This document shows positions 18,205 to 56,976 of a DNA stretch of 64,000 nucleotides, piece by piece. The stretch is taken from contig JAUSBY010000007.1 in the NCBI GenBank assembly GCA_030651765.1, positions 1 through 64,000 on the forward strand. Direction: 5' to 3'. The DNA is from Coriobacteriia bacterium (GTDB lineage: Bacteria > Actinomycetota > Coriobacteriia > Anaerosomatales > Anaerosomataceae). Position 1 is the stretch's first letter. Every line of letters begins with the position of its first letter. The notes below the pieces were generated by a model. It was not told where the DNA came from. It did not search any database and was given only the letters and a program-made list of their open reading frames with translations. The translations under genes were made by a program, and so were the position numbers.

Positions 18205-18428
18205 CTCACGAGTGGTCCGAGGCCACAGGGGCGCGGGATGTGATGCGCGGAACGCGATGACCCATCGTCTTCATCTGGGCACCTCGACGATGGTTAGCGA
18301 GTGGTGCAACCGGCCGCAGTTCGATCGCGTTGGCTGCTGCGCCCTAGTGCCCGACCTTCATCTGTGCTACTGGGGGCCTCGCACCAACGGTCGGACGGAA
18401 GATGACGTGCCGATGGGGAGGAGTCCGA

Positions 18429-41498: not shown

Positions 41499-43490
41499 CT
41501 AGTTCGTCAGTAACGGTTTGATCGTCGGCTGCGACAAGAACGCCTCGGCGTACGCGGAACCCACGTAGTCCTCGGCGATGGCCCGCACCAGCTCGCGGGC
41601 CGCTTCATCGTCGCCGGTAAGCAGGTAGCTCTCGGCCAGTGCGGCGTCGCGAGTCACGCTGGCGGGCATCGGCTCGAGCACGTCCACCGCCTCGGCATGC
41701 CGGTCGAGGTTGTTGAGCGCGCGTGCCTTGTAGACGGCGAGGTCCTGTAGTTCCGGGTAGTCCACGACCGCGAGGTTCGCCACCACGAGGTTCTTCTCAC
41801 CGATGGCGGGGCCGAGCATGCCGGCCGCCTGCCCGAGCAGGTCGAGCCGCTCGAGGGTGTAGAGGAGTTCGTGCGGATGTGCGTCGATCAGCCGGTACGT
41901 CTCCGCGTCCCACTTCTCTACGGCCGTGTAGGCCTCGGAGGTTCCCGCCTGAAGGAGCGGCACCAGCGCGGCCTTGGTGACCGCGAGGTACCGAAGCTGG
42001 ATGGTCTTCTCCCACGGGGCGATGGCTCGCGCGCGATCCAGGCTGCCGATCGAGCCGGTGCGCATGTGCTGGCCGAGATGGTAGTCCGCCCGAAGCGGGA
42101 GCGTGCCGACGACGAGCAGCACAAGCGCGATCACGCCGGCGACCGCTCGCGCCGACATCACAGCGCCAGCAGGCAGATCATGAGACCGGGCGCCCGGCGA
42201 GAGCAGGACCGCGGCACAGACGAAGATCATCAGCATCGTCGGGATGGTGGTCACGGCAAAGAGCGATGTCACGAGCAGGCCTGACGTTGCCGCGAGCCAT
42301 GCGGCATACACTCCGCGTGCTTCCGGATGTCCGGTTGTCGCCCTGACGTTCGCGATGCCCGCGCGCAGGGCCAGGCCGAGCAGAACCAGCAGCGCGAGCG
42401 CTGCGGGGATACCCATGGTGGCAGCGATCGCGAGGTAGACGTTGTGGGGGTCTTCGAAGTAGCTCCTGGCTCCGGTGAGCGGGTCTGCAAGAGATGCGGC
42501 CCGCCCGTACCAGCCCAATGTGAACGAGTCGGGGCCGGTACCGAGCAGCGGCTGATCTCCGATCACGGCGAGCGCGTCTCTCCAGCCGGTAAGGCGACCG
42601 CTGGAGATCGCATCAAGCCCGCCTTCGGCACCGACCGTGAGGCGCTCGGCGAGAAGCGCCGGACCCGCGATCGCCGCGCCAATCGCGAGCGCGGTGGCGA
42701 GGCCCGCTGCCACCAGCCAGACGCGGCGGCGCAGCTGCGCGGAGGCTGCGCCAAACAACGTGACCCCCATCACCAGCAGGCCGACGAGAGTACCGACCCA
42801 TCCCGCGCGAACCTGAGTGACCACCATCGCGGCCATGATCAGCGCGCCGGTTGCGCCCGCGACAGCCCTCTCGCGGGCCGAGCGGCCGCTGAGTAGCAGT
42901 CCGGCTGCGAGCACCAGTGGAACGACGAGGAACGCACCCACGAAGTCCGGGTTGCCAAACAGGCCGCCTCCGCGGCCGTAAAGGAAGCCCACATCTCCGA
43001 GGCCCAGCCCGGTGACGTACTCGGGCGTCATACGGATCGCCTGGTAGAGCGTGGTCACGGCTGCGATGGATCCGCTTCCAACTGTGGCCCATCCAAGGGC
43101 CCGCAGGCGGCTCGTCCCCGTGGCCAGCTGCAGGATGAGGAAGAACACCGCCACGCATCCGGCATAGGCGACCAGTCCGCTGGCTGCGTCGCGACCAAAG
43201 ATCGCAACGGCAGGGTCCAGTCCAAGCACCGTGGCAGCGACAGCGAGCGCGAAGAAGATGAGCAATGCACTTGGCGCGCGCCGCCACCTGGCCGACCGCC
43301 CGCTGGCAAGCGCCCACAGTCCGAGTGCGACCGCCGTGAGGACTACGAGTGCGGTGAGCTTGGGGATGACGAAGGACTCATAGGTGAGCGGGAGTGAACT
43401 CAGGGTGAGTGACGTGGCAGTCGTTGCCAGTGGCGTCAGGGCCACGCACGCCAGGAGCGCGTACCATGGCCATCGCGAGCGGTCGTTCAT
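41499..43490 (-). CDS. O-antigen ligase/polymerase-like protein with C-terminal repeat region (paralogue A)
   Basis: 663 residues from ATG 43490; a start 33 bases earlier is possible. About ten membrane helices fill residues 1-430. The Wzy/WaaL-type signature is GDQPLLGTGPDSFTLGWYGR followed by EDPHNVYLAIAATMGIPAAL, the periplasmic loop with conserved Arg and His. The last 200 residues are soluble and helical, with TPR-like features (SYLLTGDDEAARELVRAIAE). It shares many motifs with the gene at 51092. Enzymes of this family polymerise glycans or transfer them to lipid or protein outside the membrane. Confidence 0.85.
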   Translation of the reverse strand: MNDRSRWPWYALLACVALTPLATTATSLTLSSLPLTYESFVIPKLTALVVLTAVALGLWALASGRSARWRRAPSALLIFFALAVAATVLGLDPAVAIFGRDAASGLVAYAGCVAVFFLILQLATGTSRLRALGWATVGSGSIAAVTTLYQAIRMTPEYVTGLGLGDVGFLYGRGGGLFGNPDFVGAFLVVPLVLAAGLLLSGRSARERAVAGATGALIMAAMVVTQVRAGWVGTLVGLLVMGVTLFGAASAQLRRRVWLVAAGLATALAIGAAIAGPALLAERLTVGAEGGLDAISSGRLTGWRDALAVIGDQPLLGTGPDSFTLGWYGRAASLADPLTGARSYFEDPHNVYLAIAATMGIPAALALLVLLGLALRAGIANVRATTGHPEARGVYAAWLAATSGLLVTSLFAVTTIPTMLMIFVCAAVLLSPGARSHDLPAGAVMSARAVAGVIALVLLVVGTLPLRADYHLGQHMRTGSIGSLDRARAIAPWEKTIQLRYLAVTKAALVPLLQAGTSEAYTAVEKWDAETYRLIDAHPHELLYTLERLDLLGQAAGMLGPAIGEKNLVVANLAVVDYPELQDLAVYKARALNNLDRHAEAVDVLEPMPASVTRDAALAESYLLTGDDEAARELVRAIAEDYVGSAYAEAFLSQPTIKPLLTN

Positions 43491-43683
43491 CGTGTGTCCA
43501 ATCGCAGCCGACGTGTCGGGCACGGCGGGCGGGGGCAGCCGTGCCCCATTCTAGTACGAAGCACACGGGATACCGCTCATCTGCTCGTGATTCCTGTCAC
43601 CTGGCACGGCGCTTGTAGGATGATAGACTACCGTGGTGCTCCGACGGCCGGCCGTGTGCGCCGGGGATACCGAGAGGAACGAC
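43491..43683. other. divergent promoter region between glycan and cytochrome genes
   Basis: About 190 bases separating a leftward glycan operon from the rightward electron-transfer island. A tagact hexamer at about 43627 could be the -10 of the rightward transcript. GAGAGGAACGAC directly precedes the TPR-protein start. No palindromic operator was recognised. Confidence 0.4.
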
Positions 43684-44499
43684 ATGCAAGAGAGTGACCT
43701 CGCTACGCCAGCTGCAGACGATATCGTGCCCGCCGACGATTCAACCGAAGACGCAGCACCGCCCAGAGCGCCGTCCTCACGGAGGCCCAACTCGGTGTTC
43801 TCCGACCCGATCGTGCGACTTCTGACCGGCGTGCTCGTCGTCGTCGTGCTGCTCTTCCTGTCTACAGTCGTGGCTGCGCTGTTCCTGGGAGTGCTCGGAT
43901 CCGAGACGCCGAGAACTACGCGCGAGCGCGACCTGGTCGTTGGCAAGTATGAAGTGGACGCAGGGAACACCGACCCCACGGTCTGGAAGCAGTACATCGC
44001 CGCGTTGGTGGATAGCGGTCGCATCCAGGAGGCGCAGCAGGTCGTAGACCGGGGAATGCAGGTCATCGACAACAGGCCAGGCGCCGACATGACGTTTGCC
44101 CAGACGCAGGTCAATTACTCGGATGGCAAGTACGCGGAAGCGATTGCGACGGCCACTGGGGGCATGGATGCACTCACCGCATATCACGAGGCGCAGAAGA
44201 ACACCGACGGCACGCCCGAGTCCAAGGGTCAGCCGATAAGTGACAACTACTGGGGCATGCTGTACCTACGCGCAGTCTCACACCGCGAACTCGGGCAACT
44301 GGAGGATGCGCTCGAGGACTTCGACGCATACCTCGCCGGGAAGAAGACTGCGTCGAATATTCTCGTGGAACGCGGCGACATCCGCCTCGAGCTTGGGGAC
44401 CGTGAGGGCGCCGAGGCTGACTATCGGCAGGCACTCGTTCACATTCCTGACTACCAGCCCGCGATTGAAGCACTCGAGAAGCTTGGAGTCGAGCGATGA
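43684..44499 (+). CDS. membrane-anchored TPR protein
   Basis: 271 residues from ATG 43684. An acidic cytoplasmic N-terminus (about 1-45) is followed by one helix (LLTGVLVVVVLLFLSTVVAA, about 48-70), then an external TPR-type region: WKQYIAALVDSGRIQEAQQV, YSDGKYAEAIATA, LGQLEDALEDFDAYL and RGDIRLELGDREGAEADYRQ. TPRs here would dock partner proteins outside the membrane. It overlaps the NHL-repeat gene by four bases (ATGA). The pair precedes a set of multihaem cytochromes, so an assembly or scaffold role for those is a fair inference. Confidence 0.8.
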   Translation: MQESDLATPAADDIVPADDSTEDAAPPRAPSSRRPNSVFSDPIVRLLTGVLVVVVLLFLSTVVAALFLGVLGSETPRTTRERDLVVGKYEVDAGNTDPTVWKQYIAALVDSGRIQEAQQVVDRGMQVIDNRPGADMTFAQTQVNYSDGKYAEAIATATGGMDALTAYHEAQKNTDGTPESKGQPISDNYWGMLYLRAVSHRELGQLEDALEDFDAYLAGKKTASNILVERGDIRLELGDREGAEADYRQALVHIPDYQPAIEALEKLGVER

Positions 44500-45797
44500 C
44501 CGATACTCCCACACACGATACTCACGACGATCAGACTCCCTCGGGCGGTGGCGTCGGGCGCGCACAGAATCCTCGAAGCAGGCGTCACCGTCGGAGCCGG
44601 ACGCTGCTCATCGTCATCATCGTCATTCTGCTACTGTCACTGTGCGCTATCGGTGCGGTGTTGGCGCGGCTCGTCATGCCGTCGTCAGCAGATGTAGCCG
44701 AACGTGACGAGGCTGGCGGCATCGAGTGGGTTCGCTCCATCTACGGCTTTGGCCAGTCCGCTAGCGAGATGTTCGTTCGTCCCGCCAAGGTCAACGTCGG
44801 TGAGGACGGCGGTATCTACGTCACCGACCAGCAGCACCGGTTCGTGATGAAGTTCTCGCCCGAGGGGCAGCTCACGCAGGTCATCGGTGAGGACGCCATG
44901 CCGCCGCTATACGCGGTCGGTCCGGTGGCCGAGGGGGACGGGCAGCTGTTCTTTGGCCAGACCGCGCAGGACCTCGTACGGGTCTTCAGCATCGAGGGTG
45001 AGGACGTCTCGAACTTCCCGTTCCCGAGCCCGAATGACATCGAGTACGACGCAGTGAATGACCGTCTCGCGGTCGCTACGAACCTCGGGTTCGTCGTCTT
45101 CGGCTCCGACGGACAACCGCTCTACGAGATTGGGGGGGCGCGAGGAGAAGGGCCGGACGAGTTCGATGTGGTCCCCGGCCTGGCCTACGGACCCGACGGA
45201 ACCCTCTATGTTCTCGATGCGTACAACAACCGCATGAGTGCGTACGACTCAGAAGGCAATCGCGCCTGGCAGGTGCAGACCGGCAAGCCGGCGAAAGGCC
45301 TGGACATCACAAGCCCGGCGATGGCGGCATCCGATGACACGACCGGCACAGCGCGGTTACAGGTGCCCGCCGATGTCGTGGTGGACGGCAACGGCAGACT
45401 GGTCGTGGTGGACTCGATGGACTTCTCCGTCACCGTTTTCAACGCCGATGACGGCTCCCTGGTTGCCAAGTACGGCAACAACGGCAACAAGGACGGCCAG
45501 TTCATGTACCCGACCAGCATCGATTACGACCGGGAGCGGGACTGGTTTGCAATAGCGGACAGCGGTAATCGGCGCGTGCAGATCGTGCGGATCCCCGACT
45601 CCTCCAGCGGTGGCGGGGCGGTAATCGGGGCCGCTCGCCGGGTGCTCGCCGGCCCGCTGCGGGCATGCCTGTTCCCGCTGATTCTGCTCATCGTGATGGT
45701 CCTGGCGTGGCTCTTGCTAAGGAAGCGTAAGGGGCGTGAGCGCGATGACCTCGACGCGGTTCTTGGGGCACCGTCCGCACAGCCCGATACGGTGTGA
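44496..45797 (+). CDS. membrane-anchored NHL-repeat beta-propeller protein
   Basis: 433 residues. One helix near residues 30-55 (LLIVIIVILLLSLCAIGAVL) precedes an external six-bladed propeller: NVGEDGGIYVTDQQHRFVMK, LAYGPDGTLYVLDAYNNRMS, VVVDGNGRLVVVDSMDFSVT and DRERDWFAIADSGNRRVQIV are NHL blades. A second helix (about 385-405) and a basic tail end the protein. NHL proteins are frequent neighbours of surface multihaem cytochromes in other electron-exporting bacteria. Here the gene is directly upstream of one, which supports a role in assembly or secretion, but this is by association. Confidence 0.82.
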   Translation: MTDTPTHDTHDDQTPSGGGVGRAQNPRSRRHRRSRTLLIVIIVILLLSLCAIGAVLARLVMPSSADVAERDEAGGIEWVRSIYGFGQSASEMFVRPAKVNVGEDGGIYVTDQQHRFVMKFSPEGQLTQVIGEDAMPPLYAVGPVAEGDGQLFFGQTAQDLVRVFSIEGEDVSNFPFPSPNDIEYDAVNDRLAVATNLGFVVFGSDGQPLYEIGGARGEGPDEFDVVPGLAYGPDGTLYVLDAYNNRMSAYDSEGNRAWQVQTGKPAKGLDITSPAMAASDDTTGTARLQVPADVVVDGNGRLVVVDSMDFSVTVFNADDGSLVAKYGNNGNKDGQFMYPTSIDYDRERDWFAIADSGNRRVQIVRIPDSSSGGGAVIGAARRVLAGPLRACLFPLILLIVMVLAWLLLRKRKGRERDDLDAVLGAPSAQPDTV

Positions 45798-45828
45798 TGT
45801 GTGATACGTTAGGAACTGACGAATGGCC

Positions 45829-45857
45829 TTGTCTCAGTACCCGCTCAATGCTAGATT
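45829..45857 (+). promoter_or_regulatory. promoter of the six-haem cytochrome
   Basis: ttgtct (45829-45834) and tagatt (45852-45857) with a 17-base spacer resemble a housekeeping promoter. The region is less GC-rich than its surroundings. It would give the cytochrome a transcript independent of the upstream NHL gene. Confidence 0.55.
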
Positions 45858-45914
45858 AACTTAGGATAAGCTCGGACGCGTTGTGCGTCCGCCAGTTTAT
45901 GAGTCCTCTCGGGG

Positions 45915-45925
45915 AAGGAGGTGAT
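45915..45925 (+). promoter_or_regulatory. near-perfect Shine-Dalgarno site of the six-haem cytochrome
   Basis: aaggaggtgat matches the full 16S anti-Shine-Dalgarno complement and lies at good spacing before ATG 45930. It supports that ATG over a second start at 45981 and predicts very high translation. Confidence 0.8.
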
Positions 45926-45929
45926 ATCC

Positions 45930-47051
45930 ATGACAGAGAACAAGAACAAGACAAACCACAACACACAGGGAGTCATCAGTATGAAGAAGACCCTTCTGGT
46001 CGTGGCTATGGCTGCAGTCCTCGTCCTTTCCTTCGCGTCTGCTGCCTTCGCTGTCGGCCCGTTCTACAGCACTGCGTACAAGAATCCGGGTTACCCAACT
46101 GCCGATTTCGCCGGTACCTACCTCAGCTGGGACATCGCCGAGAGCTGGGCTGGCAACACGGGAACCTCCCCGCATGGGGGATACACCTCGACGACGAACA
46201 AGTGCGCCGTCTGCCACTCAGTGCACACGGCGTCGCCGACAGGTAGTGTCCTGACCGCGTACGGCCCCTACTCGTCGTACGCAGAGGGATGCGTCGCGTG
46301 CCACGGCACCTCCTCGACGTTCACCGATGTCAAGATGACCGCCGATGCCGACGGCTACATCTCGCCGCACGGCACCTGCACCCGTTGCCATACGCTCAAC
46401 CCGCATGGCGCCGCCGGCTCGGTGTACCCCACTCTCGCGTCGAAGCTGCTTGTTGCTAGCGCTGACGCCAACATCGCCGCGGACATCGCTGCTTCGGCAA
46501 ACGGTCTGAATGCCGGCATGTTCGATGGCACTGGCGACGTTGCTGCCGGTCTTATCATGGGCACCGGTTATCTGTGCGGCACTTGCCACGCCCAGACCTT
46601 TGCGGTCGGCGTTGCTGGTGGTAACCCGACAGGCGGTGGCAACTTCACGGGTCACCGGGTGCTTGCGAACGCTACCACCACGTGGGATGAGTCCCTCTAC
46701 GGCGCCTCGATGTCGTCGACCTCGACGATCGCTTGGAATAACGCATACGGTTGCGACTCGTGCCACAACGCCGAGGATGCCAGCGGTGGCAGTGCCTTCC
46801 CGCACGGCTACGTTGACGCCAGCGGCGCTGTTCTCGGCAAGACGATCGCCGGTTCGAGCTACATCTGGCTCACGACGGCCTCCGATGCAACGCTTGCTGA
46901 TGCGGCGCTGCTGACCAAGGTTGCGGGCCCGGACGGTCCTCCGACCGCTCTGAACACCGGCGATGCGAACACCGAACTGCTTACGCAGGACGGCCTCTGC
47001 CTCAAGTGCCACCGCTCTGGCGCTGGCGCTGGTGTTGGTCTCAACTACTAG
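45930..47051 (+). CDS. secreted six-haem c-type cytochrome
   Basis: 373 residues from ATG 45930; ATG 45981 would give a shorter but normal signal peptide (KKTLLVVAMAAVLVLSFASA, cut near AFA). Six CxxCH motifs are present: CAVCH, CVACH, CTRCH, CGTCH, CDSCH and CLKCH. Four PHG motifs recur and could give distal haem ligands. The protein is rich in Ala, Gly, Ser and Thr and has no anchor, so it should be released to the cell surface. Its own promoter, exceptional ribosome-binding site and strong terminator imply an abundant product. It is the best candidate here for the outermost electron carrier. Confidence 0.88.
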   Translation: MTENKNKTNHNTQGVISMKKTLLVVAMAAVLVLSFASAAFAVGPFYSTAYKNPGYPTADFAGTYLSWDIAESWAGNTGTSPHGGYTSTTNKCAVCHSVHTASPTGSVLTAYGPYSSYAEGCVACHGTSSTFTDVKMTADADGYISPHGTCTRCHTLNPHGAAGSVYPTLASKLLVASADANIAADIAASANGLNAGMFDGTGDVAAGLIMGTGYLCGTCHAQTFAVGVAGGNPTGGGNFTGHRVLANATTTWDESLYGASMSSTSTIAWNNAYGCDSCHNAEDASGGSAFPHGYVDASGAVLGKTIAGSSYIWLTTASDATLADAALLTKVAGPDGPPTALNTGDANTELLTQDGLCLKCHRSGAGAGVGLNY

Positions 47052-47082
47052 AGTCTGATGCCCGTGTACCACTTGCACTGCC

Positions 47083-47114
47083 GGACCGGCCCCCTCGGGG
47101 GCCGGTCCTCTTTT
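47083..47114 (+). terminator. intrinsic terminator after the six-haem cytochrome
   Basis: ggaccggccccc pairs with gggggccggtcc over up to 12 bp around a tight loop, followed by tctttt. It is the clearest classical intrinsic terminator in the window and would separate the abundant cytochrome message from the next genes. Confidence 0.9.
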
Positions 47115-47217
47115 CTCACCGGTTGACATGCAGCGGTCGGACAGCTGCCCTGGCCTGCGTCTTGCTGTTAGAATTGACGCCTGCGTGAATGTATTCACCC
47201 CGACGTGTGAGGATCGC

Positions 47218-48198
47218 TTGATACCCGCAAAGGCCCGCACGATCATCATGTGGCTGACGCTCAGCACTCTGGGGCTGGCGTTTGTCGTGACTCTGGCCAT
47301 CGGCTACACGGCTGTAGCGCTTCCCGGGTGTGCCAGCTGCCATCTCACCGGCGAGTTCGCCTTGGAGTCCAGTGCGTCACCGCACGCGGCCGTCGGCTGT
47401 ATCGACTGCCATGTGGAGGACACCGCGGCGGGAAGGGTCTCGTTCGCGACCCGCGAGCTCTTCCACATGGTGATCCCGATCGTGGGCCAGCTCGACCGAA
47501 GCTATGCGGCCGTTCCCACGGAGCGTTGTCTCGCGTGTCACGCGGCGGTGGAGAATGCAGGGGTGCTCGGCACCCGAGGCATCAGGATCCAGCACGTGAC
47601 GTGCATCGGCGCCAGCTCATGCACCGACTGCCACTCGGTTACCGCACATGGTGCGTCGACCGCGTGGCCACGCGTGCCCCAGATGGAGGACTGCTACACC
47701 TGCCACGGAGTCTCCAACAAGGTGACCGCGTGCGATGCCTGCCATGCCGATCGCGAGGAGCGGCAGCGGGTCTTTGACGGTCCGTTCCGCGTCACGCACG
47801 GCGCCGAGTGGCAGACCACCCACGGGATGGGCGACATGCGCTCCTGCAGTGCGTGTCATGACGCTGAGAAATGTGCGAGCTGTCACGGTGCGGGCGTTCC
47901 TCACGGCGGTTCGTTCCTTCAGCGACACGCGGAGTTCAGCGCAGGCCCGGAGGCGCAGTGCACATCGTGCCACCGGAAGGAGTTCTGCGACAGCTGCCAC
48001 TCGTACCCGATGCCACACGACATCGCCTTCATCACGGGTCACTCGGGCATCGTGGAGGCTGACGGTGAGGCGAAATGCCTTACCTGCCACGAGGAAGCAG
48101 ACTGCACCGAGTGCCATGCGAGCCACGTTCACCCCGTCACGCAGGAGCAGATGGACTCGTTCCTGCGGGGCGTGCCCGATTCGGGCGGTGGTGACTGA
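47218..48198 (+). CDS. membrane-anchored twelve-haem c-type cytochrome (first)
   Basis: 326 residues from TTG 47218, with GAGGATCG upstream; starts further upstream would run into the promoter region. One N-terminal helix (LSTLGLAFVVTLAIGYTAVA) anchors the protein. Twelve CxxCH motifs follow, from CASCH near residue 40 to CTECH near residue 302. The start resembles NapC/NirT-type quinol-oxidising cytochromes (helix then CASCH). It overlaps the next twelve-haem gene by one base (TGATG), so the two are probably made together and form a complex. Confidence 0.85.
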   Translation: MIPAKARTIIMWLTLSTLGLAFVVTLAIGYTAVALPGCASCHLTGEFALESSASPHAAVGCIDCHVEDTAAGRVSFATRELFHMVIPIVGQLDRSYAAVPTERCLACHAAVENAGVLGTRGIRIQHVTCIGASSCTDCHSVTAHGASTAWPRVPQMEDCYTCHGVSNKVTACDACHADREERQRVFDGPFRVTHGAEWQTTHGMGDMRSCSACHDAEKCASCHGAGVPHGGSFLQRHAEFSAGPEAQCTSCHRKEFCDSCHSYPMPHDIAFITGHSGIVEADGEAKCLTCHEEADCTECHASHVHPVTQEQMDSFLRGVPDSGGGD

Positions 48199-49487
48199 TG
48201 AACGAGCTCGTAGACGCCGTCCTGTCTTTCAGGTTTGACGATCTCTTTGTTCTGATCCGGCAGGTTCTCGACAACCCCGTCGGCAATCTTGAGGCGTCAC
48301 TACTGCTCTTGATCGCGCTGGTTGTGGCAACGCTGCTGGCGATCTTGGTGGCAGTTCTCGTGATCGGCTTTCGCGACGAAGGCGACGAGGAAGACGACCT
48401 GCTCCCCGATGAGTCACCCGCGGTCACACCGCAGCGGGCTCGTGCCGGTACGTCCGGGCGGCATGACCGCGCAGCGACGACTGCTGAGATGACCGAGAAG
48501 CTACCGCTCACGCCGACCGAGCGGCGCTGGCGCCTGACGACCGGTGTCATCTTCGGCTCCCTCGCCCTGGGCGTTGCCTGGATGCTGACAGGGGTGACCA
48601 CCGGTGCTGACTCGATGTGCCTGTCGTGTCACTCGGGCGACATGCCTCACGTAGAGCGCCTTGCCGAGGACAGCTCGGCAGACCCCCACAGCGACACATC
48701 GTGCATCAGATGCCACGAGAGCGGGGGTTGGATGGCGCGCGTGACAACGAACGTGCCACATCGTGCCGCGCACTTTGCACAGGCGATCGTGGATGATGAG
48801 GTAGTCGCCGCGTTTGGAACGCCGATTCCCGGCGGTGCGTGCCTCAACTGCCACGGTGACACTGTGCGCACGGTAAGCACCAACGAGGAGCGCGGGCTGC
48901 GGATGTCACACGCCGAGCCGCTCGACGCGGGCGGCACGTGCATGGACTGCCACGAGATGCAGATCCTCACCGGTGCGGTGGGCTCATGGACAGTCGGCAT
49001 GTCGTCCTGCTTGCGCTGTCACGACAACGAGCAGGCGAGTGCCGAGTGCGAGTACTGCCACACCAAAGACATCGCCTATGCCGTGCATGTGAACTTCGAT
49101 CCAAGCCCGAAACGTCTTGTCCCGGATACGCGATGCGGAAGCTGTCACGACGAGACCAAGTGCGATGCATGCCACGGGCTACGTATGCCGCACAGCGCGG
49201 AGTTTCTCAGCGGGACGCACCCGCGCGAGGCGACGCTCGACATCTGGTACAACGGCGGCGAGACGTGCAAGAAGTGCCACACAGCGACGAGGAATCCGTG
49301 CACTTCATGTCACCGCCAGGTGGGCCCCGGTCACCCTGTCACCGCGTGGCCAACAATCCATGCTTTGGGCGGTCCTGAAGTCGGTGCGGGCGGCTGCAAC
49401 GGCTGCCACGGTTACCTCGCTGCCATTCGCGGCCGCAACTTCTGCGGCGTGTGTCACGAGGAGTACATCGACTACCAGGCGCGGTAG
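48198..49487 (+). CDS. membrane-anchored twelve-haem c-type cytochrome (second)
   Basis: 429 residues from ATG 48198. Two hydrophobic segments (about 34-58 and 113-133) flank a charged, acidic cytoplasmic-type stretch, so the first 110 residues look like an added membrane module. The exterior part has twelve CxxCH motifs, from CLSCH near residue 142 to CGVCH near residue 420. Together with the preceding gene it could form a quinol-to-surface relay of 24 haems. The final motif pair (CNGCH, CGVCH) is close to the C-terminus. Confidence 0.88.
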   Translation: MNELVDAVLSFRFDDLFVLIRQVLDNPVGNLEASLLLLIALVVATLLAILVAVLVIGFRDEGDEEDDLLPDESPAVTPQRARAGTSGRHDRAATTAEMTEKLPLTPTERRWRLTTGVIFGSLALGVAWMLTGVTTGADSMCLSCHSGDMPHVERLAEDSSADPHSDTSCIRCHESGGWMARVTTNVPHRAAHFAQAIVDDEVVAAFGTPIPGGACLNCHGDTVRTVSTNEERGLRMSHAEPLDAGGTCMDCHEMQILTGAVGSWTVGMSSCLRCHDNEQASAECEYCHTKDIAYAVHVNFDPSPKRLVPDTRCGSCHDETKCDACHGLRMPHSAEFLSGTHPREATLDIWYNGGETCKKCHTATRNPCTSCHRQVGPGHPVTAWPTIHALGGPEVGAGGCNGCHGYLAAIRGRNFCGVCHEEYIDYQAR

Positions 49488-49522
49488 GGCCCGTGGACCC
49501 TCGCGCCGGACAGGACTGGTTC

Positions 49523-51019
49523 ATGCGGACTAGAAGCGTCACGTTCGGGGAGCGCCGTTTCGCGCTCGAAGCTGTGGTGTTCGTCTCGGCAGGGGTGGGG
49601 ATGGTGCTTGAGCTGGCGGGTTCGCGGCTCATGGCGCCGTACTTCGGCAACTCCCTATTCGTGTGGACGAGCCTGATCGGCGTCATTCTGGCGTTCATGA
49701 GCCTGGGCAACTACATGGGTGGGCGGCTGGCGGATCGCTGGCTGGATGCCACGATGCTCTCGTGGGTACTCGGAATAGGTGCGCTTGGCGTGGTGCTGAC
49801 CTCGTTCTCTGAGACCGGATTCCTCCCGGCGCTCGCCGAGGCAGGATCCGCGCGCACCATGTCGGTGGTGGCCGCCTGCGTCCTCTTCGCGGTACCGGCG
49901 GTCCTTCTGGGCGTGGTCACCCCGTACTCCATTCGCCTGCGAATGCACGAGATCGAGCATGCAGGGGCAACCGTCGGCCGTCTCTACGCGCTCGCCACCA
50001 TCGGCAGCATTGCGGGCACGTTTGCAGCCGGCTTCTGGCTGCTCTCGGTGATGGGCACCCATAACATCATCCTCCTGTGCGTGGCGGTGCTGGCGCTTCT
50101 CGCGGCGCTGCTCATGGGCCGCATCGACTGGCGCAAGGTCGCACTCCTCGCACTCGTGGCGGTTCTCGCGGCCGTGTCCTGGACGGGTTTGGACAGCGGG
50201 GAGGTGACACTCGACACGCAGTACGATCGCTACATGCTGCGCGCGTTGGTAGATCCCGCTAGTGGGCGACCGCTCATCGGTCTGTCCCGCGACTTCATCT
50301 CTGCCGAGTCGGCCTCGTACTCTGACACGGGCGAGCCCTATGCCTTTGACTACTACGAGTACTACGACCTCGCGGTTGCGCTGCACGGCGGCGTCAACCG
50401 GGCTCTCACTATCGGCGGAGGCACATTCAGCTACCCGCGCATCTTCCTTGCGGAGAATCCCGAAGCCACGATGGACGTGGTCGAGATCGATGGCGAGCTT
50501 GTCCGGGTGGCCGAGGAGCACTTCGGCTTCGCGCGCGACGAGCGCATGCCGCTGTTCCTGGAGGACGGCCGCACGTTTCTGAACCGAGCCACGGGTCCGT
50601 ACGACGTCGTGTTGATGGACGCGTTCAAGTCCGAGTCCACCGTCCCGTACCAGCTCACCACGGTGGAGTCGTGGAGGCGCTGCTACAACGTGCTCGCTGA
50701 CGATGGCATTCTCGTAATGAACGTCGTCGCGTCACCCGCCGATGAGCGCTCTCGCTTCTTCCACGCGCTCACGGCGAGTATCGCCGCAGTGTTCCCTCAT
50801 GTGGAGGTCTTTGCCGTGCAGGGCCTCGGCACCCAGGCATCGCTCGAGAATACGTCGATCGTTGCGGCCAAGGATCCGTCGCTGGATCTGGCGGCCGCTA
50901 TCGAGGCGACCGCTCCCGAGCTTGCGGCGAACCGGATCGTCGGGTACGAGGTCCCGGCCGGGACGCGCTTGCTGACGGACGACTTCGCGCCTGTCGACCA
51001 GTACCTGATGGGGCTCTGA
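49523..51019 (+). CDS. membrane-bound spermidine-synthase-like protein
   Basis: 498 residues from ATG 49523 (GTG 49493 is possible). About seven helices fill residues 10-220, including GMVLELAGSRLMAPYFGNSL and VVTPYSIRLRM. The C-terminal half is a Rossmann-like aminopropyltransferase fold: LTIGGGTFSYPRIF, TMDVVEIDGELV, LEDGRTFLNRATGPYDVVLM. The usual GGGDG is GGGTF, which weakens the case for spermidine synthesis. It follows the cytochrome genes by 35 bases and is likely in their operon. Actual substrate unknown. Confidence 0.82.
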   Translation: MRTRSVTFGERRFALEAVVFVSAGVGMVLELAGSRLMAPYFGNSLFVWTSLIGVILAFMSLGNYMGGRLADRWLDATMLSWVLGIGALGVVLTSFSETGFLPALAEAGSARTMSVVAACVLFAVPAVLLGVVTPYSIRLRMHEIEHAGATVGRLYALATIGSIAGTFAAGFWLLSVMGTHNIILLCVAVLALLAALLMGRIDWRKVALLALVAVLAAVSWTGLDSGEVTLDTQYDRYMLRALVDPASGRPLIGLSRDFISAESASYSDTGEPYAFDYYEYYDLAVALHGGVNRALTIGGGTFSYPRIFLAENPEATMDVVEIDGELVRVAEEHFGFARDERMPLFLEDGRTFLNRATGPYDVVLMDAFKSESTVPYQLTTVESWRRCYNVLADDGILVMNVVASPADERSRFFHALTASIAAVFPHVEVFAVQGLGTQASLENTSIVAAKDPSLDLAAAIEATAPELAANRIVGYEVPAGTRLLTDDFAPVDQYLMGL

Positions 51020-51091: not shown

Positions 51092-53188
51092 CTACTGCTG
51101 AGGCCTGAGACTCTCGATCGCCCCCCGGACCGCAGGATGCTCGGGGGCGTTGGCTTCTAGGGTAGTGAGGATCTCCAGGGCGTCGTCGTGCCGATCCTGC
51201 TGCCCGAGCAGGTCGGCGTAGAGCAGGCCAGCATCGACGTATGAAGGGTCGACATCCCAGAGCGGCTCGAGCGTCTCCAGCGCTGAGCCGATAGCGCCCA
51301 TACGGTACTCGGCGTAGGCCTTGTAGTACGCGGACTCAACACTCAACGGGTAGATTGTCAGGGCCTTGCGTGCCGCCTCGGTCGCTCGCGCGAAGTAGGT
51401 CGGTTCGCCCAGGACGCCACGGTTGGCGGCCAGATACGCGGACAGGGCGTGGTTCGCATACTCACGCGAATCAGCTTCGGCAAGCTCGCGGACGTAGCTC
51501 TCCGCACGGGCGGCAGCGGTCGCGGCGTTTGCAGGGTCCCGCTGCAGCGCAAGCAGTGCGTCATCGACCGCGGATGATGCAGCAATGTACCTCGCCGCGA
51601 TGTGCCACGGTGCTGTGCGTGCCGCTGAGTGCGCATCTGTCGCGGTGGATGAACCGTGTACCGCATCTGCGAGCATGATGTCGGACGCGAGCGTCACGAG
51701 TGACAGCACCGCCAGGAAGCTGCAGAGTACTCCTCCAGCACCCAGGACAAGCGACCGCTTCAGGCTCGGGGATGAAGAGCAGCTGCGCGACCCCGGGGCC
51801 GCGATCGCCGCGAGGGCGAGGGAGAGGATCAGCGCGGAGGTGAGCGTTGTCACGGCGAATGCCTGGGCGACAAGGAGTCCGGCGGCTGCGGCCCACCAGC
51901 CGGAGTAGAGAAGATTGGTGCCGCCGGAGCCTGGCCGCAGGGCTCGCCTCCAGGATGTCACGAGAATCGACGCGATCGTCCCCAGAACAGCGAGCGCCGC
52001 AGGCACTCCTAGCGTTGCGGTCAGCAGAAGCGGCAGGCTGTGTGGGTCATGGTCAGTCATCTTGATGCCCCAGACCTGCATGGATTCGAGTGACCTGGCA
52101 GCGTACCAGCCCAGTCTGTACGAATCCGGACCGGTTCCTAGGATGGGGTATCGTGCGATGACTCCGATCGCGTCCTGCCACAGGATCAGGCGACCGCCTC
52201 CGGCGGTGCTAGCACTGGTCAGGTCGCCGAGTCGCGCGAGGAAGCGCGACGGAATCCCTATCATCAAGGCGGCTGAGCCAACGCCGACAAGTGCCGCGAG
52301 CAACCCGGGCAGGGCTCGTCGCGCCCATGGTAGACGGGCAAGAGCTGCACCCAGGACACCGAGCCCAATGAGCGCACCGATCCATGCGCCCCTGGTCAGG
52401 GTGTTGGCTAGTGTGACCAGGCACAGGCCCCAGCAGGTGAACGCCATGACGCGCTGCCTGGTGTCATCTGCAGAAAGTCCGAGCGCGGCTGCCACCACCA
52501 TCGGGACGACCAGGTACGTCCCGGTGAAATCGGGGTTTCCAAGCAACGACTCGGCGCGTCCGACAAGCGAGGTCGAGCTCATCGCGAGACCTAGGGGATC
52601 CAGGTCCAGAACCTGAAGCAGGCCTACCCCGGCAACGATTGAGCCCCCCGCGACTACTGACCACGAAAGGGCAACGAGGCGCTTCATGTTGGTCACGTGC
52701 TGGATGATCAAGATGAATACCATGACGAGGAGCAAGATCGTTTGGAGCCCGAGTGCAAGGTACTGGTCACCGAAGAATGCTCTTGACGGGCTTATGGCGG
52801 CCACGGTCGAAGCGGCGGCCAGGACCAGAACGACCACCAGCCAGCGATAGTGGGGTATGGTTCGGAGTTGAGTGTGGCTTCGTGCCACACCGATACACCA
52901 CGCACCGTACGCGACCAGCACCAGTAGCGCGAGGACTGCGGCCCGCGGAAAGACCCAGAAACCGTGTGACAAGATCGGGCCCCCGAAGGGGAGCTTGCCG
53001 ATCACTATCGGTACCAGGATCGGGATGCCCAGAAGGGACCACCAGCCGAGGCGTGCTGCGCGGGTCTCCTTGGCGCGCGGGCCATTCTCCTGGAGCTCGG
53101 CTCCAAGCAGATGCTCGTCCGCAGCGGCAGGCGGCTGTCCAACCACGTGTATCCTCCATGCGTGTGCGGGCGGCTTTCCCACCATCAT
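51092..53188 (-). CDS. O-antigen ligase/polymerase-like protein with C-terminal TPR region (paralogue B)
   Basis: 698 residues from ATG 53188; the first 45 residues are not hydrophobic and the true start may be later. Ten or more helices fill residues 48-480. The signature YPILGTGPDSYRLGWYAARS with DHDPHSLPLLLTATLGVPAA closely matches paralogue A (41499), as does GNPDFTGTYLVVPMVVAAAL. The C-terminal 190 residues are TPR-like (ESAYYKAYAEYRMGAIGSAL, LLGQQDRHDDALEILTTLEA). It is convergent with the spermidine-synthase-like gene. Confidence 0.85.
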   Translation of the reverse strand: MMVGKPPAHAWRIHVVGQPPAAADEHLLGAELQENGPRAKETRAARLGWWSLLGIPILVPIVIGKLPFGGPILSHGFWVFPRAAVLALLVLVAYGAWCIGVARSHTQLRTIPHYRWLVVVLVLAAASTVAAISPSRAFFGDQYLALGLQTILLLVMVFILIIQHVTNMKRLVALSWSVVAGGSIVAGVGLLQVLDLDPLGLAMSSTSLVGRAESLLGNPDFTGTYLVVPMVVAAALGLSADDTRQRVMAFTCWGLCLVTLANTLTRGAWIGALIGLGVLGAALARLPWARRALPGLLAALVGVGSAALMIGIPSRFLARLGDLTSASTAGGGRLILWQDAIGVIARYPILGTGPDSYRLGWYAARSLESMQVWGIKMTDHDPHSLPLLLTATLGVPAALAVLGTIASILVTSWRRALRPGSGGTNLLYSGWWAAAAGLLVAQAFAVTTLTSALILSLALAAIAAPGSRSCSSSPSLKRSLVLGAGGVLCSFLAVLSLVTLASDIMLADAVHGSSTATDAHSAARTAPWHIAARYIAASSAVDDALLALQRDPANAATAAARAESYVRELAEADSREYANHALSAYLAANRGVLGEPTYFARATEAARKALTIYPLSVESAYYKAYAEYRMGAIGSALETLEPLWDVDPSYVDAGLLYADLLGQQDRHDDALEILTTLEANAPEHPAVRGAIESLRPQQ

Positions 53189-53209: not shown

Positions 53210-55090
53210 CTAGTAGCCAGCCAGACGGTTGATCACCGCGATTGTTTGAGGGTCAGCGCTGACTTTCGCCTGTTCCCACCAGGCTCCATTCGTTCTTACC
53301 ATCCGGGCAAATCGGGCAGCCTCACCGGGAGGCCCGCCGTATCGCACCAGGTAGTCACACGCGGTTGTTGCCCACAGCCCCGATGCCGGGCTGGCCGTCA
53401 TGCCGGTTTCGGCAATCGCGTACAGTTTCCCAAAGTCGATGTCACCCGCATCAGCTTGCGCTGCCCACAGGCGCAGGGCGGTTGCGCAAAGCCTCGCATC
53501 CCAACCCATGTTCGTCCTCACCAGATCAGCGCGTTCTGCCACCTTCGGCATCACGAGGCTTGCCTGCACCGGATCCGACATCATCCACGAGGCCAGTATC
53601 CCGACCGCTGACTCGGCGGGCATCACATCTCGGGTCTGCCTAATCAGGACAACCTGTTGCATGATTGCATCCTCGGGAGTGCTCCATGCGGAACCGTACG
53701 TAGCTAGTAGAGAATCGCTGCGGTTCTGAACTGGCGCCCAGGCGACGGCAGTGAGCACAAGTGCGGCAGCGAGAGCCAGGCAAGCCGCAAGCCTGACCGC
53801 CCTGGCTGGCAACTTGAAGCGCGTGAGGGGCATCTCCTGGGCAATCACGACACCGATAAGGCCTGCAGCCAGAGTCCATGCAACCGGGTAGACGAAAGCG
53901 AACTGAGCGTAGACCATCACCGCTACGGCGCCACCCACCAGCGCCAGGACGCCTGGGCGTGTGTACATAGGCGTGACCATGAACGATTGGAGGAGCAGGT
54001 ACTGGATCCAGTAGAGGACTGCTAGCGCGAGCAGTAGTCCCGGCAGTCCCAGGCCGATGCTCAGCGTCAGGAAGGCATTGTGCGCGTCTGTGGTAGTCGT
54101 TGCATCCAGCGCTCCTCCCCTCAAAGACCAGCGTGAGACGAGGGTGGAGTGTGACAGGCCAACTCCAGTGACCGGGTGCTCGGCCACAAGGCGAGCGGCT
54201 GATGCCCAGAGTGTCCCGCGACCGTTGCCCAGCGCATCGAGCAGGCTGGCCGTGCGAGACGAGGTCGCGGGTATCAACAGCGCCGACACGAGCAGGCCGC
54301 CGACCAGTATGATCGCCAGAGTCGATATCGAAGCGAATACTCGGGGAGAAGACCGTTTCGCGCATGCGAGAAGCCCGGCGCAGTAGGCGAGTGCGATCAG
54401 GGCCGCCAATGGTGACACGGCGGAACGGCACTGGCCGATATTCAGGACGATTACTGCGGCGGCTGCAGCTGCCAGACCCACATGAACCGCGCTCCGGCGG
54501 CGGGCCAGGCCCCAGGCCAGGGCAGCCCCGAGGCCCACCGCCAGCAGTTGCAGCTGGTACTGCGAGTTCGGCGTCAATCCGCTCGGTGGGCCTCCCATGC
54601 CATCGGTTGAGCCCCACTGCCACGCCGCAACTCCAGACGCTGTGGCGTAGAGGCTGATTACGATTAGGAGCGCAACAACGGGGCCGTCATGATCTCGGTG
54701 GCGACGCTCAGTGGCCCACGTGGTCAGCCAGACGATACCAGCGCATATGGTGATCCACGTCAGCGCACTGGCATCGGGATCATATGCACCGAACAGCGCA
54801 ATGTACGGCTCCGGAGCGAACAGCGAGTGTACGCATGCGTAGCCTGCGAGCAGGAACACGAACAAGACCGCTGCAATCGGTCTTGAGACGGTGCGTCGAA
54901 ATGCAGATGACACACCTGCAGTGGCCGCTCCTATCAGGAAGACCATCATGAACAACTCACGGTGCGCTATCGAGTTCATGTAGACAGGTGCGACCAGCGC
55001 GGTGGCGACCACGAGCGGCGGCCACCAGTCTCTCAAGGCCGGTCGATTCGCCTGCGCCACGGATTCGTTCATGGAGGATCGGGCACCCAT
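53210..55090 (-). CDS. O-antigen ligase/polymerase-like protein (divergent third member)
   Basis: 626 residues. I use ATG 55090, which has GGGAGAG upstream. About eleven helices occupy residues 20-440. The ligase-type loop reads AEHPVTGVGLSHSTLVSRWS and DAHNAFLTLSIGLGLPG, conserving the Asp/His positions but diverging from paralogues A and B. The C-terminal 180 residues are soluble and helical without clear TPRs. Its stop lies 21 bases from paralogue B, so both are in one operon with the pgl-like genes upstream. It polymerises glycans or transfers them to protein or lipid outside the cell. Confidence 0.82.
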   Translation of the reverse strand: MGARSSMNESVAQANRPALRDWWPPLVVATALVAPVYMNSIAHRELFMMVFLIGAATAGVSSAFRRTVSRPIAAVLFVFLLAGYACVHSLFAPEPYIALFGAYDPDASALTWITICAGIVWLTTWATERRHRDHDGPVVALLIVISLYATASGVAAWQWGSTDGMGGPPSGLTPNSQYQLQLLAVGLGAALAWGLARRRSAVHVGLAAAAAAVIVLNIGQCRSAVSPLAALIALAYCAGLLACAKRSSPRVFASISTLAIILVGGLLVSALLIPATSSRTASLLDALGNGRGTLWASAARLVAEHPVTGVGLSHSTLVSRWSLRGGALDATTTTDAHNAFLTLSIGLGLPGLLLALAVLYWIQYLLLQSFMVTPMYTRPGVLALVGGAVAVMVYAQFAFVYPVAWTLAAGLIGVVIAQEMPLTRFKLPARAVRLAACLALAAALVLTAVAWAPVQNRSDSLLATYGSAWSTPEDAIMQQVVLIRQTRDVMPAESAVGILASWMMSDPVQASLVMPKVAERADLVRTNMGWDARLCATALRLWAAQADAGDIDFGKLYAIAETGMTASPASGLWATTACDYLVRYGGPPGEAARFARMVRTNGAWWEQAKVSADPQTIAVINRLAGY

Positions 55091-55107
55091 TTCGGCTGCT
55101 CTCCCTA

Positions 55108-56976
55108 CTAGGTTGCCGCGTGAGCACTCGTCATGTGCTTGAATGTTGGCTCGAGCTGGCGAACGCATTTCATGAGCGTTTGTGAGTCGCCCTTTCCTGC
55201 AGCATCGATGAGGGTATGCACCCTCTGGCCGAGCCCTGGCTCAACAACGTCGACCCGGTCGACTCGCTGGATCCTCTCCCTGCCGGTGGGGAGAAGCGTC
55301 TCGGTGCCGCCAACCAGTGTCTCGTGGAGCTTCTCACCCGGCCGCAGGCCCACGAACTCGATGTCGGCCGGCACGCCGGCAAGCGCGATCATCTTGCGCG
55401 CGAGGTCGGCGATCCTGACCGGTTCGCCCATCTCGAGGACGAAGATGTCGCCTGCCGAGCCGATGGCCTGCGCCTGGAGAACGAGCCGGGCCGCCTCGGG
55501 AATCGTCATGAAGTAGCGGGTGACGTCCGGATGCGTGACGGTGAGCGGACCGCCGTGGCGGAGCTGCTCCTCGAAGATGGGAACCACCGAGCCGCGGCTT
55601 CCGAGCACGTTGCCAAAGCGCACGGCCACTGCGTTCAGCCCCGTCTCCCTCGTGGCGTCGAGCGTGACGCGCTCGGCCAGTCGTTTGGTGAGCCCCATGA
55701 TGTTGGCCGGGGCGACCGCCTTGTCTGTGGAGATGAGGACAAACCGGGAGACTCCGTGCGTGACGCACGCTGCCACAACGTTCAGCGTGCCGCCGACGTT
55801 CGTCTTCACGGCCTCGGCAGGCTCGAGCTCCATGAGCGGCACATGCTTGTACGCTGCGGCGTGCAGCACGAGCTCCGGCCGGTGCTCGGCAAAGAGCGCG
55901 TCGAGCTTGGCCGCGTCGCGGATATCGCAGATGTGCATCTCGGCCACGGCAGGCGCGCGCGTCTCGAGCTCGAGCCACAGCTCGTACAGGCGCGTCTCGT
56001 CGACCTCGAGCAGCAGCAGGCGCTTCGGCCCGAGCGTGGCGATCTGGCGGCACAGTTCGGCACCGATGGATCCGGCGGCGCCCGTGACCGCCACGACCTT
56101 GCCGGCGACCGTCTCGCGCACCTGCTCGACGTCGATGGGTGTCGGTTCCCGGCCGAGCAGGTCCTCGACCTCGACCGGTCGCAGATCGCGCAGACTGACC
56201 GAGCCCTTCGCGATCACGAGCGGCGGCATCACGCGGGTCTCGATGCCGAGGTCGGCCGCCGCGTTCAGCAGCGCCCGAATGCGATCGCGCGGCGCCGAGG
56301 GCAGCGCCACGACGATCTCCTCCACGCCGAGCCGGGTGGCGATCCCGGCGAGGTCCTCGCTCGTGCCGAGTACCGTCACGCCGCTGAGCGTCTTGCCGGT
56401 GAGCGCAGGGTCGTCGTCGAGGAAGCCGACGGCGGTGAGGCCAAGATCGGGCCGCGCCTGGATCTCGCGTAGCAGCAGCGAACCCGCGCTCCCCGCGCCC
56501 ACGATGAGGACGCGTCGGCCGTCGGACGCGCCCACCGCGCGGAGGTAGAGGAACACGCGGGCAGCGAGCCGGGCGCCCGACGAGCCGAGAAAGACGAGCA
56601 GCGCCTGGAAGAACAGGACGCCGAGCGGCACCGGCCGCACGTCGTCGACGAGCGGTATCGCGAGGTCGGCGACGAGCAGGAGGGCCGCCGTTGCGACGAC
56701 CGCGCCGAGGAGCCGCAACAGCGTGTCCACGCCGACGTAGCGCAAGACGAGCCGGTAGAGTCCCGCGAGAGCGAACGCGGCGACGTAGAGCACCGCCGCG
56801 ACCACCGCGAGCGGGCCTATCCAGCGCGCGAACGGTTCGGGCGGCGATCCGTCGAAGCGGGCGAGGTACGCGGCGTACGTGGCGAGCGCCACGACCGCGA
56901 TGTCGATCACGACGAGCGCGGAGTTCCAGAGGCGCCCGGTGGCCCGGACGCGCGCGAGAAGACCCTGCCCGCTCAC
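55108..56976 (-). CDS. PglF/FlaA1/CapD-type nucleotide-sugar 4,6-dehydratase
   Basis: 622 residues from GTG 56976. Four membrane helices (about 15-125) precede a first Rossmann domain (VLIVGAGSAGSLLLREIQ) and the catalytic SDR domain (VAVTGAAGSIGAELCRQIAT). The membrane-type active site is STDKAVAPANIMGLTKRLAE with Met and Lys replacing the usual Tyr and Lys. It converts UDP-GlcNAc to the 4-keto-6-deoxy sugar. It overlaps its aminotransferase partner (GTGA) and is followed by the third ligase gene. Confidence 0.92.
   Translation of the reverse strand: MSGQGLLARVRATGRLWNSALVVIDIAVVALATYAAYLARFDGSPPEPFARWIGPLAVVAAVLYVAAFALAGLYRLVLRYVGVDTLLRLLGAVVATAALLLVADLAIPLVDDVRPVPLGVLFFQALLVFLGSSGARLAARVFLYLRAVGASDGRRVLIVGAGSAGSLLLREIQARPDLGLTAVGFLDDDPALTGKTLSGVTVLGTSEDLAGIATRLGVEEIVVALPSAPRDRIRALLNAAADLGIETRVMPPLVIAKGSVSLRDLRPVEVEDLLGREPTPIDVEQVRETVAGKVVAVTGAAGSIGAELCRQIATLGPKRLLLLEVDETRLYELWLELETRAPAVAEMHICDIRDAAKLDALFAEHRPELVLHAAAYKHVPLMELEPAEAVKTNVGGTLNVVAACVTHGVSRFVLISTDKAVAPANIMGLTKRLAERVTLDATRETGLNAVAVRFGNVLGSRGSVVPIFEEQLRHGGPLTVTHPDVTRYFMTIPEAARLVLQAQAIGSAGDIFVLEMGEPVRIADLARKMIALAGVPADIEFVGLRPGEKLHETLVGGTETLLPTGRERIQRVDRVDVVEPGLGQRVHTLIDAAGKGDSQTLMKCVRQLEPTFKHMTSAHAAT

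Follow-up and report, generated by a model that had tools for sequence, protein, structure and literature searches.

A candidate extracellular electron transfer cassette in Anaerosomatales and its likeness to OmcS loci

In a stretch of 64,000 nucleotides (nt) from a Coriobacteriia bacterium (assembly GCA_030651765.1, contig JAUSBY010000007.1, positions 1 to 64,000; hereafter the window), five adjacent genes on the plus strand (43684–49487) encode a tetratricopeptide repeat (TPR) protein, an NHL beta-propeller, a secreted six-haem cytochrome (cyt6) and two membrane-anchored twelve-haem cytochromes (cytA and cytB). We propose that they constitute a cassette for extracellular electron transfer in a bacterium with a single membrane, and we give this explanation, taken as a whole, a probability of about 0.6. 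The evidence for it includes the conservation of the five genes as a set, a weak but specific profile-level relationship between cyt6 and the OmcS family, and the gene company that the two share.

Electrons would pass from menaquinol to the NrfH-type four-haem modules of the membrane-held cytA and cytB, and then along the eight further haems of each to cyt6. The latter, abundant, exported by Sec and loaded outside the membrane with six bis-His haems by the system II machinery, would carry them through and past the wall to minerals, electrodes or partner cells. Two dedicated helpers at the membrane, the anchored NHL and TPR proteins, would see to the folding, retention or release of cyt6. The outer conductor is perhaps an OmcS-like filament, the alternative being a soluble or wall-bound cyt6 monomer. 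We infer the direction of the flow, the helper roles and any polymerisation. Electron export with cyt6 as a dedicated outside conductor appears very probable, while for cyt6 working as a filament the odds seem to lie somewhat below even. The sequence-only reading of this stretch had proposed a conduit from quinol to the outside of a Gram-positive envelope, and the NrfH-type modules, the conserved cassette and the genes for cytochrome maturation and menaquinone support it.

The passage of electrons through a thick Gram-positive wall is an open question, for which the cassette offers a small, concrete gene set in cultured organisms. To our knowledge, the known monoderm systems rest on individual cytochromes. 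The cassette separates the core of a nanowire system (hexahaem cytochrome, propeller and membrane multihaem proteins) from the parts needed only for crossing an outer membrane, and it could mark the capacity for extracellular electron transfer in a subsurface order for which metagenomes are the main source of knowledge. If true, cyt6 nanowires would be a nanowire system with neither an outer membrane nor a secretion channel. Known before, as far as the available text of the two reports goes, were OmcS nanowires, an OmcS homologue in Coriobacteriales of an anode (PMC7399161) and a three-cytochrome cluster in Anaerosoma and Parvivirga (PMC9686372). No published description was found of the five-gene cassette, of its order-wide conservation, of the TPR–NHL partnership or of the parallel with OmcS loci, nor any literature on actinobacterial cytochrome nanowires save that single homologue (PMC7399161, in the text available). 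The design had been called novel before these comparisons; a nanowire-type system fitted to one membrane is indeed likely to be new, but the principle of crossing the wall is not, cyt6 and NHL resembling what is found at OmcS loci.

Conservation of the five genes

The ORF (open reading frame) listing of the window confirms six rightward ORFs at 43684–51019, which the Pfam and NCBIfam profiles name TPR, NHL, Cytochrome_C7/paired CXXCH, two multihaem cytochromes and a fused major facilitator superfamily (MFS)/spermidine synthase. The TPR protein (43684–44499, plus strand; 271 amino acids (aa); TPR_2, 6.5e-8) has one N-terminal transmembrane (TM) segment, with the TPR domain predicted outside. 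The NHL protein (44496–45797, plus strand; 433 aa; NHL, 3.3e-15) has a TM segment at both ends, with the propeller predicted outside. Both segments are conserved in its family, whose profile matches propeller structures in the PDB (5.8e-43).

cyt6 was searched for in 119 relatives, and a cyt6 profile was then run on 69 genomes of the order Anaerosomatales (OPB41); 60 loci were read with one profile per cassette gene, the TPR and NHL genes being counted as linked at no more than 4.5 kb from cyt6. In 48 of the 69 genomes cyt6 is detected at E ≤ 1e-25. Linked TPR and NHL genes accompany 50 of 55 cyt6 genes, and the TPR gene is upstream of the NHL gene in 50/55 cyt6 loci. All five genes are present with 38/55, and the strict order TPR–NHL–cyt6–cytA–cytB on one strand is kept with 30/55. 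Since this order recurs across Anaerosomatales, the block is not a chance arrangement. The profile scores of the five components correlate (rho 0.79–0.93; the genomes are related, so that this is partly phylogeny), and where one genome has two cassettes (L046) they co-vary between these as well. Judged from these scores, which rise and fall together, the five genes evolve as a unit of the order. The sequence-only reading had named the same gene order in relatives as its check and a lack of conserved synteny as the point against it; synteny of five genes is what we find.

Several genomes have two cassettes, and the cytA–cytB pair is sometimes inverted (L108, L119, L120 and L127). In the genome analysed here (G000), a second, permuted cassette occurs on the minus strand of contig C6 (L220:2234-8867), in the order cytA–cytB–TPR–NHL–cyt6-like and near the ResB and CcsA-like genes; its cyt6-like part has 4 + 3 haems over two adjacent ORFs, possibly through a frameshift. 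In other members of the order, giant multihaem cytochromes are found near TPR–NHL–cyt6 or long-cyt6 genes, with 52 haems in L120 (at least 1637 aa), 55 in L133 (at least 2339 aa), 40 each in L134 and L135, and 43 in L141. A search with a single sequence had hinted at probable Anaerosoma and Parvivirga genomes without the cassette. Profile searches refuted this, the cassette being present in G009 (probably Anaerosoma tenue) and in G012 (probably Parvivirga hydrogeniphila).

Could the NHL and TPR proteins be unrelated envelope proteins, vertically inherited, so that gene order means little? Both folds are common, and most of the compared genomes come from one order. But the TPR–NHL–cyt6 triad survives duplications, cytA–cytB inversions and the permuted second cassette, and does so in numerous families; all three cassette-type NHL proteins of G000 sit in cytochrome regions; and an NHL gene adjoins omcS in other phyla. 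We regard such an accidental association as highly improbable.

The sixth gene (49523–51019, plus strand) encodes an MFS/spermidine-synthase-like membrane protein (NF037959, 266 bits for a cut-off of 40). Only a minority of relatives have it close to the cassette, and its order and strand vary. Considered as a core part of the cassette, it was dropped for this variability and the small number of genomes. The six-gene set first proposed thus reduces to a conserved unit from TPR to cytB, with the aminopropyltransferase-like gene as a loose neighbour. Canonical aminopropyltransferases have a GGGDG motif and an Asp-Pro active-site loop. At the corresponding sites the protein reads GGGTFS and MDAFKSES, without a GGGDG-type motif or the Asp-Pro loop; because of these replacements, spermidine synthesis by this product is doubtful.

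The six-haem cytochrome and OmcS loci

The cyt6 gene (45930–47051, plus strand) encodes six CxxCH motifs and six conserved distal histidines. Its most likely start is the ATG at 45930, with a leader, then a signal peptide from the Met at 45981, and a mature protein from about 46053. A near-perfect Shine–Dalgarno sequence, AAGGAGGTGAT (45915–45925, plus strand), ends 4 nt 5′ of that ATG. Among the cassette genes, such a sequence is restricted to cyt6: the exact match to the consensus at the best start averages 7.4 nt in 47 cyt6 orthologues vs. 4.2–5.2 nt for the other genes. On the 3′ side follows a strong intrinsic terminator (47083–47116, plus strand; 11-bp stem at 47083–47108 and a T-run), and similar terminators occur 3′ of cyt6 in 16/48 orthologues. 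Because the terminator lies between cyt6 and cytA, the block is unlikely to be transcribed as a single simple unit. The ribosome-binding site and the terminator, both passed over in the sequence-only reading, would fit a secreted protein that is produced in quantity from a separate mRNA.

The six haem motifs and the distal histidines H65, H82, H130, H142, H225 and H275 are invariant or nearly so in cyt6 proteins, so that there are enough ligands for every haem. H82, counted from the Met at 45981, is the CHxxH histidine. The protein mass per haem is ∼6 kDa in cyt6 vs. ∼3 kDa in cytA (the latter from its length), and a high ratio has been noted for OmcS relatives (PMC12977616). Ser and Thr make up 20.8% of cyt6 vs. 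∼14% of cytA and cytB. In about a dozen genomes, long variants occur in which the cyt6 domain, usually at the C-terminal end, stands behind 3–16 extra haems (L033:7188-9605, which also has Ig-like sequence, L040:16674-18632, L041:13369-14805, L124:1137-4925, L130:9002-12103, L131, L132 and L136 among them).

OmcS is the six-haem cytochrome that forms nanowires in Geobacter, polymerising with a haem that the adjacent subunit ligates. With a comparison set of 95 OmcS homologues from 74 loci, the profile–profile score between cyt6 and OmcS is 112, while the controls (cyt6 against cytA, cytB and 26-haem cytochromes) give 50–82 in local and 48–77 in global alignment. The six haem motifs of the two families align in register, with one conserved distal histidine ahead of each motif, and the haem and histidine order of cyt6, h1h2h3h4h5h6, is that of the 95 homologues. 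Because shared CxxCH motifs inflate profile scores, the five inter-haem linkers of OmcS were permuted in all 120 orders. The native order ranks 1/120, and the mean score climbs as more linkers stand at their native positions (65, 73, 81, 93, 112). When every ORF of the OmcS loci is searched with the cyt6 profile, the 19 best hits are OmcS proteins, which outrank their 26-, 16- and 8-haem neighbours. In the converse search of the actinobacterial loci, the best-scoring ORFs for the OmcS profile are members of the cyt6 family, with modest E-values (6e-4 and weaker). At the level of profiles, cyt6 is thus a remote counterpart of the OmcS family, by a relationship that is weak but specific.

A clearer OmcS homologue occurs within the order itself, in G059 (L228:8987-10912; six haems, 27% identity over residues 8–406); TPR and NHL genes precede it by a few kb. 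An ordinary cyt6 was not found in that genome. This locus is an intermediate between the cyt6 cassette and the OmcS system.

The gene company is similar as well. Among OmcS loci of Desulfobacterota, Nitrospirota and other groups, 55 have enough sequence, and in 24 of them the gene immediately upstream of the first omcS encodes an NHL protein; the background is one NHL gene in 315 other genes of the same loci. TPR genes are often nearby, MFS/spermidine-synthase-like genes occur in few, and large multihaem genes follow downstream. The Geobacter locus (omcS/omcT/oscC and the osc block, GSU2504–GSU2493) likewise encodes a secreted six-haem cytochrome with the haem and histidine order of cyt6. There are differences: cyt6 is a shorter protein, and its similarity to OmcS is remote; the NHL proteins of OmcS loci look secreted, whereas the NHL and TPR proteins of the cassette are membrane-anchored; and cytA and cytB are membrane donors of the NrfH type, unlike the 26-haem OscI. 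An osc-type propeller beside a cytochrome is seen here as the NHL gene directly upstream of cyt6, which does not imply orthology with OscD. In the available text of the reports concerned, the osc block is linked to folding (OscH), secretion (OscE–G) and morphology (OscD) (PMC13194489, PMC12977616, citing Shen 2025). NHL proteins beside surface cytochromes have been noted in Desulfovibrio ferrophilus and Geoalkalibacter (PMC9769857, PMC12016550).

Closer relatives also provide points of comparison. In Anaerosoma and Parvivirga, three adjacent multihaem genes, two of them called quinol-oxidising, occur in both strains (MCK8115470-72 and MCL4078710-12; PMC9686372, from the text available). This cluster, from the same taxonomic order, is very probably cyt6–cytA–cytB. 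In that text neither TPR–NHL partners, OmcS kinship nor order-wide conservation is named, and the term NHL appears nowhere. In Coriobacteriales S27, abundant in an anode biofilm and with 37 multihaem cytochromes, the available text reports a six-haem OmcS homologue with all six motifs and 28% identity (PMC7399161); a single gene is described there, without a cassette, and it is closer to the OmcS-like gene of G059 (27%) than to cyt6. The cytochromes OcwA, OmhA and Smh of Thermincola and Carboxydothermus also export electrons from monoderm cells without porins. No TPR–NHL–hexahaem cassette was found for them in the literature as far as available, the comparison being by description.

Membrane cytochromes and the route of electrons

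cytA (47218–48198, plus strand; 12 CxxCH) has an NrfH-like N-terminus followed by eight further haems; the TTG at 47218 is preferred as its start, the ORF being open from an ATG at 47128. cytB (48198–49487, plus strand; 12 CxxCH) has two N-terminal hydrophobic segments and an NrfH-like module. The N-termini of both match NrfH (PDB 2j7a), at E 1.8e-13 with the cytA profile (A2) and at E 8.4e-10 with that of cytB (the conserved family A4). Each is thus, by profile match, a four-haem quinol-dehydrogenase module of NrfH type, unnoticed in the sequence-only reading, with eight haems added. They share with the NrfH/NapC/CymA quinol dehydrogenases the N-terminal TM segment and the four-haem module, and differ from them in the fused haems; the Met after the first CxxCH of NrfH is absent from cytA. 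Four tandem NrfH-like multihaem cytochromes, with 12, 9, 9 and 11 haems, are found elsewhere in the genome (G000:C6:227972-231594; L221:5963-9753).

NrfH is the donor of the NrfA nitrite reductase, and NrfH is the best match of cytA. The chain could on this ground be a respiratory one, not extracellular at all, in which NrfH-like donors serve a soluble reductase for nitrite, sulfur or another acceptor. No catalytic reductase subunit is found in the block by the Pfam and NCBIfam profiles, however, and a nitrite reductase chain was dropped for lack of one. Such a chain has no obvious place for a secreted six-haem protein of OmcS type, and giant multihaem cytochromes adjoin several related cassettes, all of which makes it very hard to credit.

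System II cytochrome maturation genes (ResB and CcsA-like, contig C6) are present in the genome; the sequence-only reading had suggested looking for such genes. A gene of the MqnA/D family (futalosine-type menaquinone) supports menaquinone synthesis. According to the available text of PMC9686372, cultured relatives use H2 and formate as electron donors and pass the electrons to Fe(III) or sulfur compounds. This points away from a cassette that works inward, in which minerals, cathodes or partner cells would supply the electrons and cytA and cytB would reduce the quinone pool. Multihaem chains are reversible, the sequence does not fix a direction, and a related Coriobacteriales 16S type comes from a biocathode (PMC7399161, in the text available); we consider inward flow unlikely all the same.

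The same available text (PMC9686372) describes Anaerosomatales as Gram-positive with pili-like appendages, which the Fe(III) reducer Parvivirga forms on ferrihydrite only. A cyt6 filament would explain this. A fuller version is more tentative than the filament itself: TPR and NHL would nucleate or guide, at the membrane, a cyt6 nanowire that crosses the Gram-positive wall, cytA and cytB would charge it directly from quinol, and the long cyt6 variants would be built in as its base or as adaptors.

Several results weigh against the export cassette or against its filament. The OmcS search of the order's genomes with a single sequence did not retrieve cyt6 itself; the cyt6 profile run against PDB sequences gave nothing meaningful and no OmcS; and part of the similarity between cyt6 and OmcS is the common paired-CXXCH motif. 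The AlphaFold models of cyt6 are of low confidence (mean predicted local distance difference test (pLDDT) of 58 and predicted template modelling score (pTM) of 0.62 with 66 sequences; pLDDT 44 with 23), and Foldseek and VIA gave no match with them; fold searches with OmcS match only OmcS itself and close homologues (PMC9473688). Among the cassette ORFs there are no counterparts of the channel-like OscEFG or of the prolyl isomerase OscH, an absence that is expected without an outer membrane. The physiological role of OmcS filaments is disputed (PMC11077965, in the text available). In the available text on the two cultured relatives, respiratory quinones were not detected, and only one of the isolates reduces Fe(III), Anaerosoma (probably G009, which has the cassette) being the one that does not (PMC9686372). 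Finally, G000 and the probable Anaerosoma and Parvivirga genomes encode pilus ATPases of the type II/IV secretion type, so that the reported appendages may be pili.

The last point leads to a serious rival of the filament, with the same export cassette, in which cyt6 is a monomeric secreted or wall-bound shuttle and the appendages are ordinary pili. The pilus-type ATPases speak for it, as does the lack of any structural sign of cyt6 polymerisation from AlphaFold, Foldseek or VIA. So does Carboxydothermus ferrireducens, a Gram-positive in which secreted and surface cytochromes dominate: the available text proposes the secreted Smh and the cell-surface OmhA as such shuttles and reports non-conductive filaments (PMC7829351). 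On the other hand, cyt6 has its nearest counterpart in the OmcS family and not among compact shuttle cytochromes; its mass per haem is about twice that of cytA, and a high ratio has been noted for OmcS relatives (PMC12977616); and the NHL companion is common to OmcS loci. We judge the shuttle a substantial possibility, at roughly one chance in three.

Flanking genes and other cytochromes

The window is part of contig C15 of a 2.26-Mb genome, with a G+C content of ∼66% in the window. The 30 haem motifs of the block (6 in cyt6, 12 in cytA and 12 in cytB) are all plain CxxCH, and a DNA pattern for tandem CxxCH gave no match. Neither a porin nor an outer-membrane beta-barrel with bound cytochrome of the Mtr/Pcc type is found among the ORFs of the block, by the ORF list and the Pfam and NCBIfam profiles; a porin–cytochrome system was dropped for this reason. 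On both flanks, opposite-strand Wzy_C proteins (three in all) and glycosyltransferases occur. The sequence-only description of one rightward block between glycan genes, with 30 haems and no porin–cytochrome genes, thus agrees with the ORFs and profiles.

On the left, the Wzy_C protein (41499–43523, minus strand; O-antigen ligase/O-oligosaccharyltransferase type; PF04932, 1.9e-15) has an orthologue of 54% identity in the corresponding position of G038. On the right are a Wzy_C + TPR protein (51092–53188, minus strand; PF04932, 5.4e-15) and a further Wzy_C protein (53210–55168, minus strand; PF04932, 7.2e-13). The genome contains eight Wzy_C matches, seven of them above the family cut-off; besides the three that flank the cassette, a fourth is immediately next to the second cassette, on C6. 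A Wzy_C gene is nearby in 10/48 related loci with NHL and cyt6, a recurrence that had gone unremarked. Wzy_C proteins include protein O-oligosaccharyltransferases, and glycosylation of the Ser/Thr-rich secreted cyt6 by those of the flanks is a possibility.

Two other multihaem proteins are encoded on the same contig. Within the window, a cytochrome with 13 motifs (18402–19475, plus strand) is far from the cassette, between an isocitrate/isopropylmalate-dehydrogenase-like gene and a histone-deacetylase-like gene. Just past the window, an ORF with 32 haem motifs (G000:C15:65704-67905; L222:5704-7905) extends over at least 734 aa and runs off the contig end.

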